A stretch of 64,000 bases of DNA from Anaerolineaceae bacterium (GTDB lineage: Bacteria; Chloroflexota; Anaerolineae; Aggregatilineales; Phototrophicaceae), in NCBI GenBank assembly GCA_002699585.1, contig PABP01000038.1, positions 496,001 to 560,000 of the forward strand, given 5' to 3'. The notes beneath the pieces are model-generated. The model saw only the letters and a list, made by a program, of their open reading frames with translations, was not told where the DNA came from and did not search any database. Shown here one piece after another: positions 26,025-32,914 of the stretch. Within the stretch, counting starts at the first letter, position 1; each line of letters opens with the position of its first letter. The position numbers and the translations under genes are program-made.

Positions 26025-27311
26025 TTATGCCGTAGCCGCGGATCGTTCTGGTGAACTGGGGTTCTCCGGTTCCGGGATAGATTCTTCCTCGTCGTGATGG
26101 TCGTCACCGCCATAAAGCGGTAAGAAGCGTAATCCCAACGAATAGGCCATCAGGATATAGCCGAGTACCCCAGCCCCCACGCCCCATTCAATCCATGAGG
26201 GCCGATAGGCATTGATGGAGAACGTTTCGGCGACACCGGGCGACCAATCCATCGGCACGATCAAACCGGAAAGCGTGACGTTCCAGCGGTTGACGATGAC
26301 GCCTAGAATGACGAAGGCCATCGCCACAAGGATGAGGCCATCGCGTTTACGCAAGGCCGGAACCAACAAGATTACAACGGGTATCAAGGCCCCCATCAGG
26401 ATTTCCACGAGCCAATAGGTCGTACCATAAGGGGCGAAGCGATTAAGCAGTTCGAGGCTTTCCACACGGGCAGGCAGATGACTGTAATAGCTTGTCGCCA
26501 GGAAGTCCCACAGGTTGAGGTAGAGATAAAGCGCCAGCACAATCCCGGCGACGACGCCCAGGATATTGCGTACCTGCACCGAAATGTGGCGCCTGCGGGT
26601 GATGTTTTCGTACAGAACAGTGATACCTAAAACGAAAGTCACCCCGGCAGCAACAGCCGACATGATGAACATCACCGGCAGCGAGGGCTTGAACCAGATC
26701 GGACGCGCCACTAGCACACCATAGGTCGCGCCCAGGGAAGATTGATGCAGCAGCGACAAGCCCAGGCCGATCACTGCGCCAACGGGGGCGAATTTATGGA
26801 TGACATGGCCGACACGCGGCGCACCGGGGAAAATCCGGCGGACAGGAGCACTATCAAACAGAACTGGCGCGAATTCCAGAATCAGCACAGTGGAGTAAAG
26901 CATCACACAAATGGTGATTTCCCACAGGACTGAGTGGACGTTCCAGTAAACCATCGGATGCCAGAAGCGATCTGGGCGGCCAATGTCCATCAAGAGGGCG
27001 AGCATAGCCCCGGTATAGCCAATTAAGCCTGTAAAGACAGCGATACGGGCAATCGAGCGCAGGCGCTCTACACGGAAGATGTAGACCATCGCCGACAGAG
27101 AGAAGGCCCCAGCACCGAGTGCAATCGAAGATAGGTCAACGGTGATCCATAGGCCCCAGGGGACTTGATTGGTCAGGTTGGTGACGTCTAAGCCATTTAC
27201 AAGCACGATGATACCCGACACCAGGCCGACGATGAGCATCAGCGTCAGCAGGCCGACCCAGATGACGAACACCGGGGAGCGAGAATATTCGTTACGGATT
27301 GCGCGGATCAT
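26025..27311 (-). CDS. nrfD: NrfD/PsrC-family quinone-reactive membrane subunit
   Basis: A 428-residue polytopic protein with about nine or ten hydrophobic segments. Family features are GLWITVDLSSIALGAGAF near the second helix, LLMDIGRPDRFWHPMVYWNVHSVLWEI in hydrophilic-tipped helices, and LLHQSSLGATYGVL. This is the NrfD/PsrC/ActC fold that exchanges electrons between membrane quinones and an extracytoplasmic ferredoxin. The C-terminal 30 residues are acidic and soluble. Its ATG overlaps the ferredoxin stop by 4 bp. The operon lacks the catalytic molybdopterin subunit that accompanies most NrfD proteins; a multiheme cytochrome stands in its place. Confidence 0.92.
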   Translation of the reverse strand: MIRAIRNEYSRSPVFVIWVGLLTLMLIVGLVSGIIVLVNGLDVTNLTNQVPWGLWITVDLSSIALGAGAFSLSAMVYIFRVERLRSIARIAVFTGLIGYTGAMLALLMDIGRPDRFWHPMVYWNVHSVLWEITICVMLYSTVLILEFAPVLFDSAPVRRIFPGAPRVGHVIHKFAPVGAVIGLGLSLLHQSSLGATYGVLVARPIWFKPSLPVMFIMSAVAAGVTFVLGITVLYENITRRRHISVQVRNILGVVAGIVLALYLYLNLWDFLATSYYSHLPARVESLELLNRFAPYGTTYWLVEILMGALIPVVILLVPALRKRDGLILVAMAFVILGVIVNRWNVTLSGLIVPMDWSPGVAETFSINAYRPSWIEWGVGAGVLGYILMAYSLGLRFLPLYGGDDHHDEEESIPEPENPSSPERSAATA

Positions 27312-28174
27312 ATCGCCATACCCTCCGGTGGGATGTAGTAAACGTTCGGCTCTGTCCCCAGGTCTTCGCGCAGGCGGAAGGTGGGATTGTTTGCAATAGC
27401 TTGTGAAACCGGGCTGTTCGGGTCGTTAAGGTCACCGAAGATACGGGCATCGACCGGGCAAATGTTGACACAAGCAGGGGTCGCCTGAGGATCAATACCT
27501 GGGACCCGACCTTGCGGCAGCCCACGATCAATGCGATGGACACAGAACGTACATTTTTCCGGGACACCGCGCGGGCGAATATCGACCTCAGCAGCGCCCC
27601 ATTCTTCCTGATAGCCACTATCTTCCGTGCGCTGCTTCCAATTAAAGGAACGCGCCCCATAAGGACAAGCCACCTGACAGTAACGGCAGCCAATACAAAT
27701 GTCATAGTCCATGATGACAAGGCCATCTTCGCGGACGTAGGTGGCCTGTACCGGGCAAACCGAGGTACAGGGCGCATCCTGGCAGTGTAGGCAGGGCCGC
27801 GTCATGTGGAACTCGACGCCCGTTTCCGTGACATCCGGCTTATAGACATTCCAGCGCATCTCATCGGTGACATTGTTCACAGCTTGGCAGGCATACACAC
27901 AATACTGGCAGCCGATGCATTTGCTCAGGTTGATGACCATGCCCCAGCGATGTTTGCCAGAAGGCCCGTGGCCGCCATACATTTCTTCTTCTTCGATTGC
28001 GCCTTGCAGGTCGATCTGGACTTCTTTTTCGATCAGATCACGCAGGACATCGACTTCGCTTACGGCAGCAGCTACTGCGACACTTACGCCAGCGGTCGCC
28101 ATCATCGCCATAAACTCGCCACGCGTCAGGAATTCGCTGTGATTTTGGTTCTCATGATTTGAGTTCTTATTCAT
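27308..28174 (-). CDS. Four-cluster 4Fe-4S ferredoxin subunit (NrfC/DmsB/PsrB type)
   Basis: The ATG at 28174 (MNKNSNHENQ) is chosen because GAGGGTGAG lies upstream; the longer frame from 28264 would run into the upstream cytochrome gene. The product is 288 residues. A TRGEFMAMMATAGVSVAVAA segment near residues 16-35 resembles a Tat-type or hydrophobic leader but has one arginine, so the export route is unclear. Four ferredoxin cysteine groups follow: CIGCQYCVYAC, CLHCQDAPCTSVCP, CIGCRYCQVACP and CTFC...CVNICP, enough for four 4Fe-4S clusters. It would carry electrons between the NrfD subunit and the octaheme cytochrome encoded just upstream. Confidence 0.92.
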   Translation of the reverse strand: MNKNSNHENQNHSEFLTRGEFMAMMATAGVSVAVAAAVSEVDVLRDLIEKEVQIDLQGAIEEEEMYGGHGPSGKHRWGMVINLSKCIGCQYCVYACQAVNNVTDEMRWNVYKPDVTETGVEFHMTRPCLHCQDAPCTSVCPVQATYVREDGLVIMDYDICIGCRYCQVACPYGARSFNWKQRTEDSGYQEEWGAAEVDIRPRGVPEKCTFCVHRIDRGLPQGRVPGIDPQATPACVNICPVDARIFGDLNDPNSPVSQAIANNPTFRLREDLGTEPNVYYIPPEGMAI

Positions 28175-28217
28175 AATCGTCTCACCCTCTTGTCTCTGCG
28201 ATCCGTTGATGTCACGG

Positions 28218-29162
28218 TTATGATCCATTGCGACGGTCAAAACGACCCGGACGCAAACGAGCAATGAGAATGATCAGGATGCCACCGAGAGCAATACCGA
28301 CGACGATTCCCTGTATTAAGTGAACAGCGGAGCTATTCTCGCCCTGGGCACGGACGGAATTAATTTCGGCTTCTAGCTCTGCGACATCAACGCGCGAGGC
28401 CATCGCCACTTCGATGCCTTCGTCACGACTGGCGAGGTATTCCTCTGTATTTTCATGGCAGGAAGTACAGGCCAATGTCTCGACATCGCCTTCATGGCCC
28501 GTCGGCGAGAGCACACCTGTAGCGATATGCGCTTCCGTATCGAACTCGCCACGATGCCAGTGACAATCGGTGCAGGCATTTTCAACATGGGTTTCGTGGG
28601 CAAAGCCCGTCAGCACATCCTCACCGTGGCAATTCAAGCAGAGTTCATTGGTCGTCTCGAAGCGGATTTGCTGCGGATGCGGGTTGTGGCACGTCGTACA
28701 GGGCATATCTTCCGCACCATGCGGGCTGACTTCCCATTCATGGTAAGTCGTCAGGTGGCACTCCGCACAAACATCAACCCCATTGAGCACAGGCACAGGT
28801 TCTTCCGGGTGGTTTTTCGGGGTAGTACCGTGACACGCCTCGCAGGTCACACCCTCAGCCCCGATTTCACCCGTTACGGGAGAATAACAGGTTGTATGGC
28901 AGTCTAAACAAGATGAATCCACGCCATCAGCAATGGCGTCCTGGAATGCCGGCGAGTGATACGTAGTCGCATGGATGCTATCCTGCCAATCCGCGACAAC
29001 ATCGATATGACACTCCGCACAGGTTTGATAATCAGGGTCTGTGACAGGTCTGTCATCACAAACCTTATCCAGAGCATACACGGACCGGGGAACGGCCATC
29101 AAGGCAATTACGAATATGAAAACAACTAATGATAGATGATTGAGCCTATTTATCTTCAACAT
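28218..29162 (-). CDS. Membrane-anchored octaheme c-type cytochrome
   Basis: A 314-residue protein with a signal peptide (LSLVVFIFVIALMAVPRSVYA) and eight CxxCH heme motifs: CAECH, CLDCH, CEACH, CAECH, CTTCH, CLNCH, CTDCH and CTSCH. Extra histidines between them are likely distal ligands. A C-terminal membrane helix (IQGIVVGIALGGILIILIA) followed by arginines anchors it with the hemes outside. It is the first gene of the operon with the ferredoxin and NrfD subunits and is divergent from the larger cytochrome gene. The set resembles NrfBCD-, Qrc- or ACIII-like modules but matches none fully. No catalytic pentaheme NrfA is present. Confidence 0.92.
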   Translation of the reverse strand: MLKINRLNHLSLVVFIFVIALMAVPRSVYALDKVCDDRPVTDPDYQTCAECHIDVVADWQDSIHATTYHSPAFQDAIADGVDSSCLDCHTTCYSPVTGEIGAEGVTCEACHGTTPKNHPEEPVPVLNGVDVCAECHLTTYHEWEVSPHGAEDMPCTTCHNPHPQQIRFETTNELCLNCHGEDVLTGFAHETHVENACTDCHWHRGEFDTEAHIATGVLSPTGHEGDVETLACTSCHENTEEYLASRDEGIEVAMASRVDVAELEAEINSVRAQGENSSAVHLIQGIVVGIALGGILIILIARLRPGRFDRRNGS

Positions 29163-29353: not shown

Positions 29354-31108
29354 ATGCGAAAACGCACCGTCTCTATTGGAATTATTGGGTTAATGCTGGT
29401 TGGACTTGGGGCAGCACTGATTGGCTGCACACCGGATCGATCCGCACCGGAATTGGCCCATGTCGAGGCCATCGAGAGCGAAGTCACAGCGACACCCGTT
29501 GAAGTCGCCATGGCCAGCCTGGAATTGACACAAGTCCCGCCATTTACCGATGTTGAATGTCTTGAATGCCATACCAATCAAGGGCAGCTTACGCTACTAG
29601 CAGCACCCCCGGAGGACAGCGAGGCCGAGAGCCTTTCCTCCGGCCCTGGCTGAGGCGGCGCCGTGGCTGAACGTGAGCCATGGGAGCTCGTCTGGATTGA
29701 CGGCGAAACATTTGAACAAGACATACACGCTATGATTAACTGCACAAGCTGCCATTTGGGGCAATCCGTAGATGATATGGACCTGGCCCACGAAGGCATG
29801 CTAAGCAGCCCGACCGCTGACCCGGTCAGCACTTGTGGCCAATGCCACCCCGCGATTACCGAATCCGCAGTAGACAGCCTTCACTATACGTTGGAAGGCT
29901 ATGACACAGCCATCTATGGCCGTACAGCGCCAGAGGATCATCCGGCTGTGGAAGAGATGGAATCGTATCACTGTAACTCCTGCCATGCGACATGCGGCGA
30001 CTGCCACGTCAGCCAACCGGCCAGCGTGGGCGGTGGTCTGGTCGAAGGCCATGTGTTCCAACGTGAACCCTCTATGTTCCAGAACTGCACAGCTTGTCAC
30101 GGCAGCCGCATCAATGACGAATATCGCGGTCTGACGTCTGGCCATGCCGATGTTCACTACAGCAACCGTATGACGTGTTCAGCCTGCCATACCGGCGATG
30201 AAATGCACGGCATGGATATGACCGACGTCAATCATCGCTATGATGGTGGCGAAGAACCGGCCTGCATTAGCTGCCATGAGGATCAAGTCGGTGTTGGCAG
30301 CGGGATATTGCAGCACGAGCTACACGGCACGGAATCCATGTCCTGCCAAACGTGCCACAGCATCGAATACAACAATTGCACCAATTGCCACGTCGAGCGC
30401 ACAGAAGACGACATCGCCTTCTTCAGTGTCGAGTCTTATGACCTGGACTTCGCCATTGGCAAGAATACGCTCATCAGCGCGGAACGCCCGTGGGAATACG
30501 TCACGGTACGCCATGTCCCCATCGATCACGAGTCGTTCAGCTTCTATGACATTGAACTGACCAACTTTGATTCAAGACCGACCTGGGTGTATTCAACACC
30601 GCATAACATCCAGCGCAATACACCCCAGACGGAAAGCTGCACAAGCTGTCACTATAACGACGAGATTTTCCTGACGGCAGATCGTGTCGTTCCTGAAGAA
30701 CTGGCAGCCAATGCGTCGGTCATGGTCACAGGGGCACCGCCTCTCCCAGCAGGTTACGAAGAATACGACGACCGCAATGCGGAATCCACAGAAGACTTCT
30801 TCGGCGGCGGCACAACTGAGGAAGCACCTGCAACAGATAGTGGTGGTTTCTGGGGAGATACCCCGGCTGAGGAAGAAGAACCAACTGAAGACAGCGGCGG
30901 ATTCTGGGGCGATGCGCCCGCAGAAGACGAAAAAGCCGACGACACAGGTAGCTTCTGGGGAGATACCTCTTCGGAAGACGAAGCATCCGACGCGGCTGAC
31001 AATAGTGGTGGCTTCTGGGGTGAATCTAGCGATAGTGGCGCATCATCAGAAGATAACACCACAGATGATGATGCCGAAGAAGATTCTGGTAGCTTCTGGG
31101 GCAGTTAA
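29354..31108 (+). CDS. Undecaheme lipoprotein cytochrome c with in-frame TGA (possible selenocysteine at residue 100) and FWG-repeat tail
   Basis: The ATG at 29354 follows AAAGG and starts a lipoprotein signal peptide ending in the lipobox LIGC (MRKRTVSIGIIGLMLVGLGA...). One CxxCH (CLECH) follows, then SSGPG, then TGA at 29651-29653. The same frame continues without another stop to 31108, adding ten CxxCH motifs (CTSCH, CGQCH, CNSCH, CGDCH, CTACH, CSACH, CISCH, CQTCH, CTNCH, CTSCH). Read through, it gives 584 residues and eleven hemes. A SECIS-like hairpin lies right after the TGA. A GTG at 29663 with GAGG upstream could restart translation, but that product would have no signal peptide and its hemes could not be attached. 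From about residue 475 the tail is acidic and low in complexity, with five FWG motifs. Selenocysteine, read-through and a simple nonsense mutation are the alternatives. Confidence 0.75.
29651..29683 (+). promoter_or_regulatory. In-frame TGA with adjacent SECIS-like hairpin
   Basis: After TGA at 29651-29653 the bases 29661-29668 (CCGTGGCT) pair with 29676-29683 (AGCCATGG), giving 8 bp with one G-U. They close on the 7-nt loop GAACGTG, whose first base is G. The loop begins 15 nt after the TGA, near the short end of the spacing seen in bacterial SECIS elements. The structure is suggestive, not proof. Confidence 0.45.
30790..31105 (+). repeat. FWG-repeat acidic tail of the lipoprotein cytochrome
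   Basis: Five in-frame FWG motifs occur at 30848-30856, 30902-30910, 30953-30961, 31013-31021 and 31094-31102, plus a degenerate FFGGG near 30796. Each is preceded by S/T-G-G/S and most are followed by D or E. Linkers of about 14-24 residues are rich in Glu, Asp, Ser and Thr. The last motif sits at the extreme C-terminus (SGSFWGS). Confidence 0.85.
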
Positions 31109-31276: not shown

Positions 31277-32914
31277 ATGCGTAAGCTAGGATTTGTTTTA
31301 TTGGCCGTGATGTTGGTCTTTGCGCTGGTCGTACCCGTCGCCGCACAAGACGCCGCCGTCGTGGCCCAATTGGAAGCCTATAGTGAAACTATCCCGCCGT
31401 ACGGCACCATTTCCGCCGCTGACGTCGCAACGGCCATCGCTGAACGCGAACTCGTCTTGCTTGACGTCCGTGAAGTTGAGGAATACGAAGCGGGCCATGT
31501 TGAAGGCGCATTCAATGTGCCGATCCGCACACTGGGCGAAAATCTGAATTTGCTGCCTGATACCGAAGCAGAAATTATCGTGATCTGCCAGGGTGGTGCG
31601 CGTGCGATGCTGGCACAGACCGCACTGCGCGTCCTCGGCTATAGCAATGCTCAGACGATGGCTGGTGGTATGGGGGCCTGGGTTGGCGAAGACTTGCCGA
31701 CTGTCACCGATCCATTTATGGTCGAAGCGGGTGAAGCACCGGAATTTGACGCAGCCGTCTACGAAGCCGTCAATGGCTACCTGGTGAACCTGCCCCAGGG
31801 TTACGGCCTGACAAACGCCAATGCGCTCAATGAAGCCCTATTTGAGAATCCCGATATTCTGCTGATCGACGTGCGCAGCCCGGACGAATGGGCCAATGGG
31901 TACATCGCGGGTGCCGAGCACATCTGGGTGAATGAATTCATGGCCAGCGTAGATGCATGGCCGGAAGACAAAGACGCCGCTATCGTCATCTATTGCGCCA
32001 GTGGCTATCGTGGTGGCATCGCCACCGTCATGATGAACCTGATGGGTTACACCAACGTTCGCAACCTGTCGGGCGGTATTGGTGCCTGGATCGCAGCCGG
32101 CTTGCCGCTGGAAGGCGTTCCTGAAGAAGCCGCCGAAGAAACCGCTGAATTCGACTTTGCAGCCGTTGCCGATGAATATCTCAGCAGCCTGCCAGAGACC
32201 TTCAACGCGGTTCGTCCTGATGGTCTGGCAGAAGAACTTGAAGGCGACGATGTCCCCTTCCTGGTTGACGTGCGCACGGTTGACGAATATACCGAATCAC
32301 ATATTGAAGGTGCGATCAACATTCCGCTGCAAGAGCTGACCCAGAACCTGGACCTGCTGCCCGCACAAGACGCCAATATCGTCGTTTACTGCGGTAGCGG
32401 CCATCGTTCAGCACTGGCTATGGAAGCCCTCAACCTGCTGGGTTACAGCAACACACGCAGTATGTTGACTGGCTTCGCTAACTGGTCCGGCGCAACATCA
32501 GACGTCCCGGTAGAAGCTGAAGTGGGCATGGCCCCTGAGATCGACCCAGCCCTGTTCGAAGCCGTTGATGGTTACATCAGCAGCATCCCGGCTGGTTACT
32601 TCATCGTCCGCGCCGATGCCTTGAACGAAGAACTGTTCGAGAATGAAATCTTCCTGATCGACGTCCGTACAGATGGCGAATTTGAAGCTGGTTACATCGA
32701 AGGCGCAGTGCATATTCCGCTGGAGCAACTGGTCGCCCGTATGGATGAATGGCCGGAAGATATGGCCGCAGCCATCGTCGTTTACGACAACCCAACCCAT
32801 CGCAGCACCATGGCCATGGAAATCATGCAAATCCTGGGTTATGAAAACGTCCGTACGCTGGGTGGTGGCTTTGGCGCATGGTCAAGCGCTGACCTACCCG
32901 TCGCAACCCCATAA
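31277..32914 (+). CDS. Exported protein with four rhodanese domains, the last without catalytic cysteine
   Basis: A 545-residue protein with a Sec signal peptide (MRKLGFVLLAVMLVFALVVP, cleavage near VAA-Q) and AGGAGG before the ATG. It contains four rhodanese-like domains in tandem, each with a LIDVR-type start, an EGAxxIP motif and an active-site loop. Loop cysteines are C104 (VICQGGAR), C240 (YCASGYR) and C372 (YCGSGHR). In domain four the position is D504 (VYDNPTHR), so it should be catalytically dead. Rhodaneses carry persulfide sulfur. An exported four-domain form beside a multiheme electron-transfer module points to extracytoplasmic sulfur transfer, perhaps from polysulfide or thiosulfate. 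It is likely co-expressed with the cytochrome gene 168 bp upstream. Confidence 0.9.
   Translation: MRKLGFVLLAVMLVFALVVPVAAQDAAVVAQLEAYSETIPPYGTISAADVATAIAERELVLLDVREVEEYEAGHVEGAFNVPIRTLGENLNLLPDTEAEIIVICQGGARAMLAQTALRVLGYSNAQTMAGGMGAWVGEDLPTVTDPFMVEAGEAPEFDAAVYEAVNGYLVNLPQGYGLTNANALNEALFENPDILLIDVRSPDEWANGYIAGAEHIWVNEFMASVDAWPEDKDAAIVIYCASGYRGGIATVMMNLMGYTNVRNLSGGIGAWIAAGLPLEGVPEEAAEETAEFDFAAVADEYLSSLPETFNAVRPDGLAEELEGDDVPFLVDVRTVDEYTESHIEGAINIPLQELTQNLDLLPAQDANIVVYCGSGHRSALAMEALNLLGYSNTRSMLTGFANWSGATSDVPVEAEVGMAPEIDPALFEAVDGYISSIPAGYFIVRADALNEELFENEIFLIDVRTDGEFEAGYIEGAVHIPLEQLVARMDEWPEDMAAAIVVYDNPTHRSTMAMEIMQILGYENVRTLGGGFGAWSSADLPVATP

Follow-up and report, generated by a model that had tools for sequence, protein, structure and literature searches.

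Selenocysteine (Sec) has been predicted or annotated in the c-type cytochrome ExtKL of Geobacter and in an octaheme cytochrome of the tetrathionate reductase type (PMC13188914, PMC5877670), the Sec form of the octaheme tetrathionate reductase being listed as GenBank annotated (PMC13188914). Within the ext cluster of Geobacter, a selenite/tellurite phenotype has been described for ExtI (PMC5877670). Selenoprotein families usually have Cys counterparts (PMC9312934).

The window analysed here, a whole stretch of 64,000 nucleotides from an Anaerolineaceae bacterium of the Chloroflexota, very likely carries a single intact gene, not a broken one, whose product is an exported electron-transfer protein with eleven hemes. 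A UGA at codon 100 of this gene is in all probability decoded as Sec. Both statements are made without protein-level evidence, and the second rests on comparative sequence analysis. We regard the gene as a new variant among the known seleno-cytochromes. In the open-licence literature that we searched, nothing was recognised as the window's seleno-cytochrome family, and the main text of the deep-Sep paper (PMC12013277) contains none of the terms "cytochrome," "heme," "Chloroflex," and "Anaeroline." NCBIfam release 20 has no matching model for the family; the NCBIfam and Pfam matches of the cytochrome were general, weak, or partial only, and the Pfam Cytochrome_C7 match of the frame reached 38.9 bits. 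The features of the locus are as follows.

26025 to 27311, minus strand: NrfD-like quinone-interacting membrane subunit (PF03916, 107.7 bits)
27308 to 28264, minus strand: DsrO-like 4Fe-4S subunit (NF045797, 202.2 bits, just over the cut-off of 200)
28218 to 29162, minus strand: octaheme c-type cytochrome with a C-terminal hydrophobic helix (by eye), divergent to the seleno-cytochrome
29354 to 31108, plus strand: inferred undecaheme selenocysteine c-type cytochrome gene, 584 residues with Sec at 100, TAA stop at 31106 to 31108
29354 to 29428, plus strand: signal sequence with lipobox-like LIGC (Cys 25), read by eye from the translation
29558 to 29572, plus strand: heme motif 1 (CLECH), the sole heme motif upstream of the TGA
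29651 to 29653, plus strand: in-frame TGA, read as selenocysteine; codon 100, the single interruption of the frame
29661 to 29683, plus strand: SECIS-like hairpin, consensus helix 29663 to 29670 with 29674 to 29681
30803 to 31105, plus strand: low-complexity acidic tail with five FWG repeats, outside the aligned core
31277 to 32914, plus strand: four-domain rhodanese (Pfam Rhodanese, 256.3 bits, four stretches)

A sequence-only reading of this stretch had claimed one frame with a single TGA, 484 sense codons and ten CxxCH motifs after it, a lipoprotein signal and one heme motif before it, the context S-S-G-P-G-U-G-G around it, and a downstream part that lacks a signal peptide, which was held to argue against two genes. 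Each of these claims held. The translation (M...GPG-stop-GG...FWGS-stop) shows 484 sense codons after the TGA and then the TAA, and the motif count gives 11 CxxCH motifs, one at residue 69 and ten at residues 130 to 429; the context of the TGA is as claimed. The signal was confirmed by eye only, and a comparable hydrophobic start, with SC or GC after it, is seen in several homologues. The downstream open reading frame (ORF) (29663 to 31108) has a possible GTG start at 29663 and 481 residues, and its first residues, read by eye, show no signal peptide. A chance open frame is excluded, since base composition gives a probability near 2.5e-9 for 484 codons without a stop and homologues align with the core on either side of the TGA. 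With 11 CxxCH motifs kept in the alignment and an export signal judged by eye, the protein satisfies the criterion for a multiheme c-type cytochrome. In the 15-member alignment, ten His residues outside the CxxCH motifs are invariant (H125, H146, H177, H233, H268, H285, H321, H324, H387, and H417). At the place of the acidic tail, homologues have FWG repeats or, in other lineages, PLDAPP/PLDVP-like repeats.

As criteria for a bacterial selenoprotein, we used (i) a UGA kept at one place with coding conservation on both sides, (ii) a hairpin directly 3' of the UGA, and (iii) the presence of SelA, SelB, SelD, and tRNA-Sec in one genome. The locus satisfies all of them, with the tip of the window's hairpin departing from the family consensus. 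Sec decoding is judged very likely because the TGA is conserved, the hairpin covaries, and the genome encodes this machinery.

Homologues of the cytochrome were found in 15 of the 61 genomes of the order set (the window's own and 60 relatives), counting its own and G056, which was matched in pieces. All 15 carry TGA at the same codon, within the motif G-[PS]-G-U-G-G; a second match of 40 residues in G046 was dropped before counting. A draw of 400 genomes from the phylum gave a cytochrome match in 13, with TGA at the site in 13 of 14 matches; the remaining match is a distant relative that lacks the loop. The class draw yielded 79 matches in 77 of 396 genomes. Four of these miss the site and were left out; TGA lies inside 69 of the 75 matches that span it, and its position was correct in all 29 of the 69 that were fetched. 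A single-protein search of genome_contigs gave no match, but an alignment search of the same collection did find relatives, 254 in total, of which the best 80 were examined (GTDB genomes of Chloroflexota and Actinobacteriota). TGA is present in 78 of these 80 loci, the exceptions having Trp (L100) and Phe (L130). Among them, the records of L115, L120, L126, and L138 are named Acidimicrobiia, Acidimicrobiaceae, Actinomycetes, or Actinomycetota, and L141 groups with L126 on the tree. The order, phylum, class, and GTDB draws overlap. Aligned across the TGA, homologue cores are 41 to 64% identical to that of the window, and one homologue (L014, from G040) has ACG where the window has the GTG at 29663.

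The hairpin is located 10 to 28 nt past the TGA, a spacing that fits the usual bacterial SECIS element. With columns numbered from the T of TGA, the helix comprises up to eight pairs, columns 13 to 20 with 24 to 31. In the alignment of 15 sequences, 94.2% of the cells are paired; neither this value nor the covariation score was matched by any of 500 shuffles, and both are far above those of slid versions. Three pairs are changed on both sides in these sequences (equalled by 31 of 500 shuffles), seven further pair types occur (equalled by 25 of 500), and RNAalifold recovers six of the pairs unprompted. Pair counts were made on 93 distinct sequences from 105 loci, and 7 or 8 of the 8 pairs are kept in 91 of these 93 TGA sequences. 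Columns 16 and 28 form GC in 54 and CG in 35 of them. Because these columns are first codon positions, the swap is seen jointly in the protein, which mostly reads V-A-P-L-E-P-W or V-P-P-L-E-A-W; the RNA pair thus appears to dictate the exchange of the two residues (A...P for P...A). On a tree of 80 members built without the hairpin columns, the pair switches at least four times, but a sign test would need more than the 2 independent pairs that fall on starred branches. The window's own fold (z, -3.42) pairs 29661 to 29668 with 29676 to 29683 around a 7-nt loop, GAACGUG, whose first base is G. Its tip is divergent, with a G-G mismatch at columns 19/25 and an A at column 21, where 91 of the 93 sequences have G.

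The genome of the window encodes a tRNA-Sec with a UCA anticodon (72.8 bits), SelA (565.5 bits), SelB (344 bits), and SelD (380.3 bits). The SelD gene (L202:131-1066 = G000:C35:514430-515365) has one in-frame TGA near the N terminus, SCAG-U-ASKLG, at the usual Sec/Cys place of SelD, which makes SelD a probable selenoprotein as well; the SelD matches of G054 and of three genomes of its genus lack a TGA. SelB is over the cut-off in all 15 order genomes with the cytochrome, as is SelA in 14, with a partial match in G034, whereas both are present in 6 of 17 order genomes without it (Fisher p 1e-4 against 15 of 15). The 17 were hand-picked out of 46, so that 32 of the 61 genomes were tested in total. 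SelD is over the cut-off in 12 of the 15 cytochrome genomes (none in G034, below the cut-off in G051 and G056) versus 9 of the 17 others. All 13 cytochrome-bearing genomes of the phylum draw have SelA, which carries little weight because SelA is common in the phylum (over the cut-off in 321 of 400). Every cytochrome-bearing genome tested for SelA has it; the class draw was outside that test. Past the NrfD gene of the cytochrome cluster, and on the same strand as that gene, G054 (L028) and G045 (L029) carry selB and selA, and G056 (L035) carries selA. This placement makes it possible that the Sec machinery is cotranscribed with the cytochrome module in some genomes.

Two checks proposed in the sequence-only reading have thus been made: residue 100 of the homologues is TGA in nearly every case and was never found to be Cys, and selA, selB, selC, and selD are all present in the genome. 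Its Sec reading is supported, again without evidence at the protein level. The remark that a Sec c-type cytochrome would be unusual held in part, as ExtKL and the octaheme cytochrome of the tetrathionate reductase type are precedents (PMC13188914, PMC5877670).

Copies without TGA have Trp at the site in L100, L193, and L196, encoded by TGG in all three (the loop of L196 being diverged), Leu in L194, His in L195, and Phe in L130; the Sec loop is missing in the second copy of L197, and L198 is cut by the contig end. In none of the copies examined was Cys found at the Sec site, all replacements being Trp, Phe, Leu, His, or loss of the loop. This runs contrary to the pattern of selenoprotein families and counts against the Sec reading. 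L100 is sister to the TGA-bearing L124 (support, 100), and L193 comes from the same genus as L201; the TGA was thus lost more than once. In L100 and L193, the frame is one gene in which the TGA became a sense codon, and SelA is still encoded in the genomes of L100 and L130. The hairpin retains 4 to 6 of its 8 pairs in L100, L130, L194, L195, and L196, and all 8 in L193 (TGA to TGG), which is expected if L193 represents the youngest loss. As side observations, the locus L197:2609-8859 (G676) combines a TGA copy with the loop-less second copy, the latter in a frame with 21 CxxCH motifs, and a YeeE/YedE-like transporter (by eye) is encoded near the Sec-less copy of L100 (L100:6293-7228).

The rhodanese next to the window's cytochrome appears to be exported, judged by eye from its hydrophobic start. 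Its active-site motif has Cys in domains 1 to 3 and Asp in domain 4, and its frame contains no in-frame TGA. A rhodanese of at least two domains lies within 3.5 kb of the cytochrome in 53 of 53 TGA loci and in none of five TGA-less loci (Fisher p 2e-7, phylogeny ignored and with only five TGA-less loci). For this count, at least 2.3 kb was needed on both sides of the cytochrome, and a profile of 193 rhodanese domains was used, built from rhodanese-bearing loci, all of them with TGA, and leaving out L100. The following were excluded: (i) loci with short flanks, including L035, L078, L085, L086, L102, L118, L120, L137, and L138, which have TGA and no rhodanese in the short flanks available, and L195 and L198, which have neither TGA nor rhodanese; (ii) ten loci that repeat another contig, and L033; and (iii) the distant L199 and L200, without Sec loop or rhodanese. 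Nor did the count include the loop-less second copy in L197, where the rhodanese adjoins the TGA copy. No rhodanese was found near the distant loop-less L062, L199, and L200 (for L062, from its ORFs only).

Individual loci show the same association at closer range. L100 retains a 94-residue remnant of one rhodanese domain. The seleno-cytochrome gene of L201 is separated from a multiheme cytochrome gene by a frame for a two-domain rhodanese; in L193, from its genus, the two cytochrome genes adjoin and no rhodanese is found within 3.9 kb on either side. In L008:550-2958 (G052), two rhodanese domains are fused to the C terminus of the seleno-cytochrome in one frame. From this strict co-occurrence and joint loss, we infer that Sec is likely to be functionally coupled to the adjacent rhodanese.

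On the other side of the cytochrome, the Fe-S subunit satisfies the DsrO criterion (more than 200 bits to NF045797) narrowly, and the membrane subunit scores 278.2 bits with the QrcD model, under its cut-off of 570. No anti-phage system at the locus was matched by PADLOC.

The fold of the cytochrome was predicted with AlphaFold. The model from 15 sequences was poor (pLDDT 36.3), and the one from 80 sequences, without hemes, reached a pLDDT of 88.8 and a pTM of 0.85. Foldseek gave no match of this model at E <= 0.001 in the PDB. In a second look, the best fold match was 1sp3, the Shewanella octaheme tetrathionate reductase (Z 9.6, 256 residues, rmsd 3.9 A, residues 58 to 400); this Z score is modest, as models without a clear match typically reach a best Z of 7 to 8. 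A profile-profile comparison (hhalign) with nine Chloroflexota TIGR04315 members (probability, 98.4; E 8e-15) aligns the hemes from the third on. PDB sequences searched with profiles returned no more than partial matches to other cytochromes. By inference from the modest fold match and the profile comparison, the protein may consist of a tetrathionate-reductase-like core with an N-terminal module that bears the Sec loop.

Two identities with known families were rejected. At E <= 1, 15 members match 18 families, among them, weakly, ExtM (13 of 15), ExtN (5), and ExtO (5), but not ExtKL (NF040886; cut-off, 250 bits). TIGR04315 (cut-off, 375 bits) has no match at 1e-5 in the window's own genome, and the protein has eleven hemes, not eight; in five genomes with both genes, the TIGR04315 matches (1e-5) fall elsewhere than the seleno-cytochrome. 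Separately, octaheme tetrathionate reductase genes were observed in 11 Chloroflexota genomes (L152-L162); in nine of them, TIGR04315 also partially matches a second frame, of 900 to 1,040 residues, at a distance of about 1 kb.

Taken jointly, Sec decoding and rhodanese coupling are likely, without protein-level evidence. In the mechanism that we propose, SelB and tRNA-Sec would decode the UGA, aided by the hairpin just downstream, and Sec, as residue 100, would sit between hemes 1 and 2 in the glycine-rich loop G-x-G-U-G-G. The Sec selenolate would receive sulfane sulfur from the rhodanese (as persulfide, thiosulfate, or polysulfide), the heme chain would reduce the Se-S bond or, in reverse, oxidise it, and the products of the divergent NrfD, DsrO-like, and octaheme genes would link the heme chain to the menaquinone pool. 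The joint gain and loss of Sec and rhodanese would, by inference, point to respiratory sulfur chemistry. Whether sulfane-sulfur redox is the reaction of the Sec cytochrome could go either way, the proposal being inferred from gene neighbours and a modest fold match; on the same grounds, reduction appears more likely than oxidation. We lean slightly against a bolder version, in which the Sec selenolate would be the dedicated acceptor of sulfane sulfur from an obligate rhodanese, an eleven-heme, tetrathionate-reductase-like wire would reduce the Se-S bond with quinol electrons, Cys would be unable to substitute, and loss of Sec would lead to loss of the rhodanese.

Several other explanations can be considered. 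(i) Sec may be present in a module whose substrate is selenite or tellurite, a role that has been proposed for the ext cluster of Geobacter. Among rival substrates, selenite comes first because that cluster has analogous parts and ExtI a selenite/tellurite phenotype (PMC5877670). The same kinds of parts occur here as in the ext cluster (ExtKL, cytochromes, and ExtH) (PMC5877670), and the weak matches to ExtM, ExtN, and ExtO (13, 5, and 5 of 15 members) also speak for it. However, there is no ExtKL match at E <= 1 in 15 members, the hemes number five in one and eleven in the other, and the quinone module here is NrfD/DsrO-like, not the cytochrome b/Rieske module of the ext cluster (PMC5877670). 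We consider this substrate unlikely. (ii) Sec may be present but noncatalytic, a heme ligand or tuner or a redox switch in an electron conduit. With ten invariant His residues outside the CxxCH motifs, most hemes could be bis-His coordinated, as in pure electron carriers, and a few members tolerate Trp, Phe, Leu, or His at the site; but a ligand or switch role by itself leaves the joint loss of the rhodanese unexplained, and it too is improbable. (iii) A near-cognate tRNA, such as tRNA-Trp, may read the UGA as Trp or a mixture, the hairpin merely stimulating readthrough. The TGG at the aligned codon of three TGA-less copies (L100, L193, and L196, the last with a diverged loop) favors this reading. 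Against it stand SelA in all cytochrome-bearing genomes tested, the TGA in the genome's own SelD, the weakening or loss of the hairpin in five of six TGA-less copies, selA beside the cytochrome cluster in three genomes, and the other replacements at the site (Phe, Leu, and His). Readthrough, which the sequence-only reading had also listed, is thus disfavored and very unlikely. (iv) That the TGA is a real stop (two genes, a recent nonsense mutation, a sequencing error, or a pseudogene) is all but excluded, since against the GTG at 29663 that opens the 481-residue downstream ORF stand the same TGA in homologues of many families and two phyla with cores 41 to 64% identical, a downstream product without signal peptide (by eye) whose hemes could not be attached in the usual way, the ACG at the place of the GTG start in G040 (L014), and the one continuous gene seen where the TGA turned sense (L100 and L193), so that nonsense mutation and sequencing error, both raised in the sequence-only reading, failed on the conservation of the TGA.

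Sec decoding coupled to the rhodanese remains our preferred reading. With it, the selenoproteins gain a family that is common in this Chloroflexota class (a match in 77 of 396 class genomes versus 13 of 400 in the phylum draw), reaches Actinobacteriota, and departs from the pattern of Cys counterparts for Sec families. Where annotation takes the TGA as a stop, each such gene would be split in two, a short lipoprotein and a cytochrome without a signal. That Sec and rhodanese are present and lost together, even within one genus, provides a testable handle on the role of Sec in multiheme cytochromes, a role that the cited papers leave open for ExtKL as well.

Compared with known systems, the window shares with ExtKL (NF040886) a predicted Sec in a multiheme c-type cytochrome (PMC5877670, PMC13188914), and the Geobacter ext cluster has a rhodanese-like ExtH and further cytochromes, as do the parts found here (PMC5877670). 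However, ExtKL has five hemes and the window protein eleven, and ExtKL, described in Geobacteraceae, has porin and cytochrome b/Rieske partners, whereas the window partners are NrfD/DsrO-like. The DsrMKJOP/Qrc/Nrf modules are resembled by the Fe-S subunit just over the DsrO cut-off and the NrfD-like membrane subunit; the window module differs in its octaheme cytochrome partner and in the divergent seleno-cytochrome gene that it faces. Rhodanese and Sec are also joined in one system in the TsoB rhodanese/DsbD fusion selenoprotein (NF045694) and a rhodanese-related (seleno)protein (NF041203) (PMC13188914); for the rhodanese of the window, the scores with these two models are 107.8 bits (cut-off, 805) and 121.8 bits (cut-off, 115), respectively. 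Here, in contrast, Sec is placed in the cytochrome and the rhodanese has no TGA. The octaheme tetrathionate reductase has eight hemes against the eleven CxxCH motifs of the window; the matched part includes neither heme 1 nor the Sec loop, and heme 2 is not covered by the profile match. On the side of likeness, a non-heme Cys is invariant between hemes 1 and 2 of the reductase in nine Chloroflexota members.
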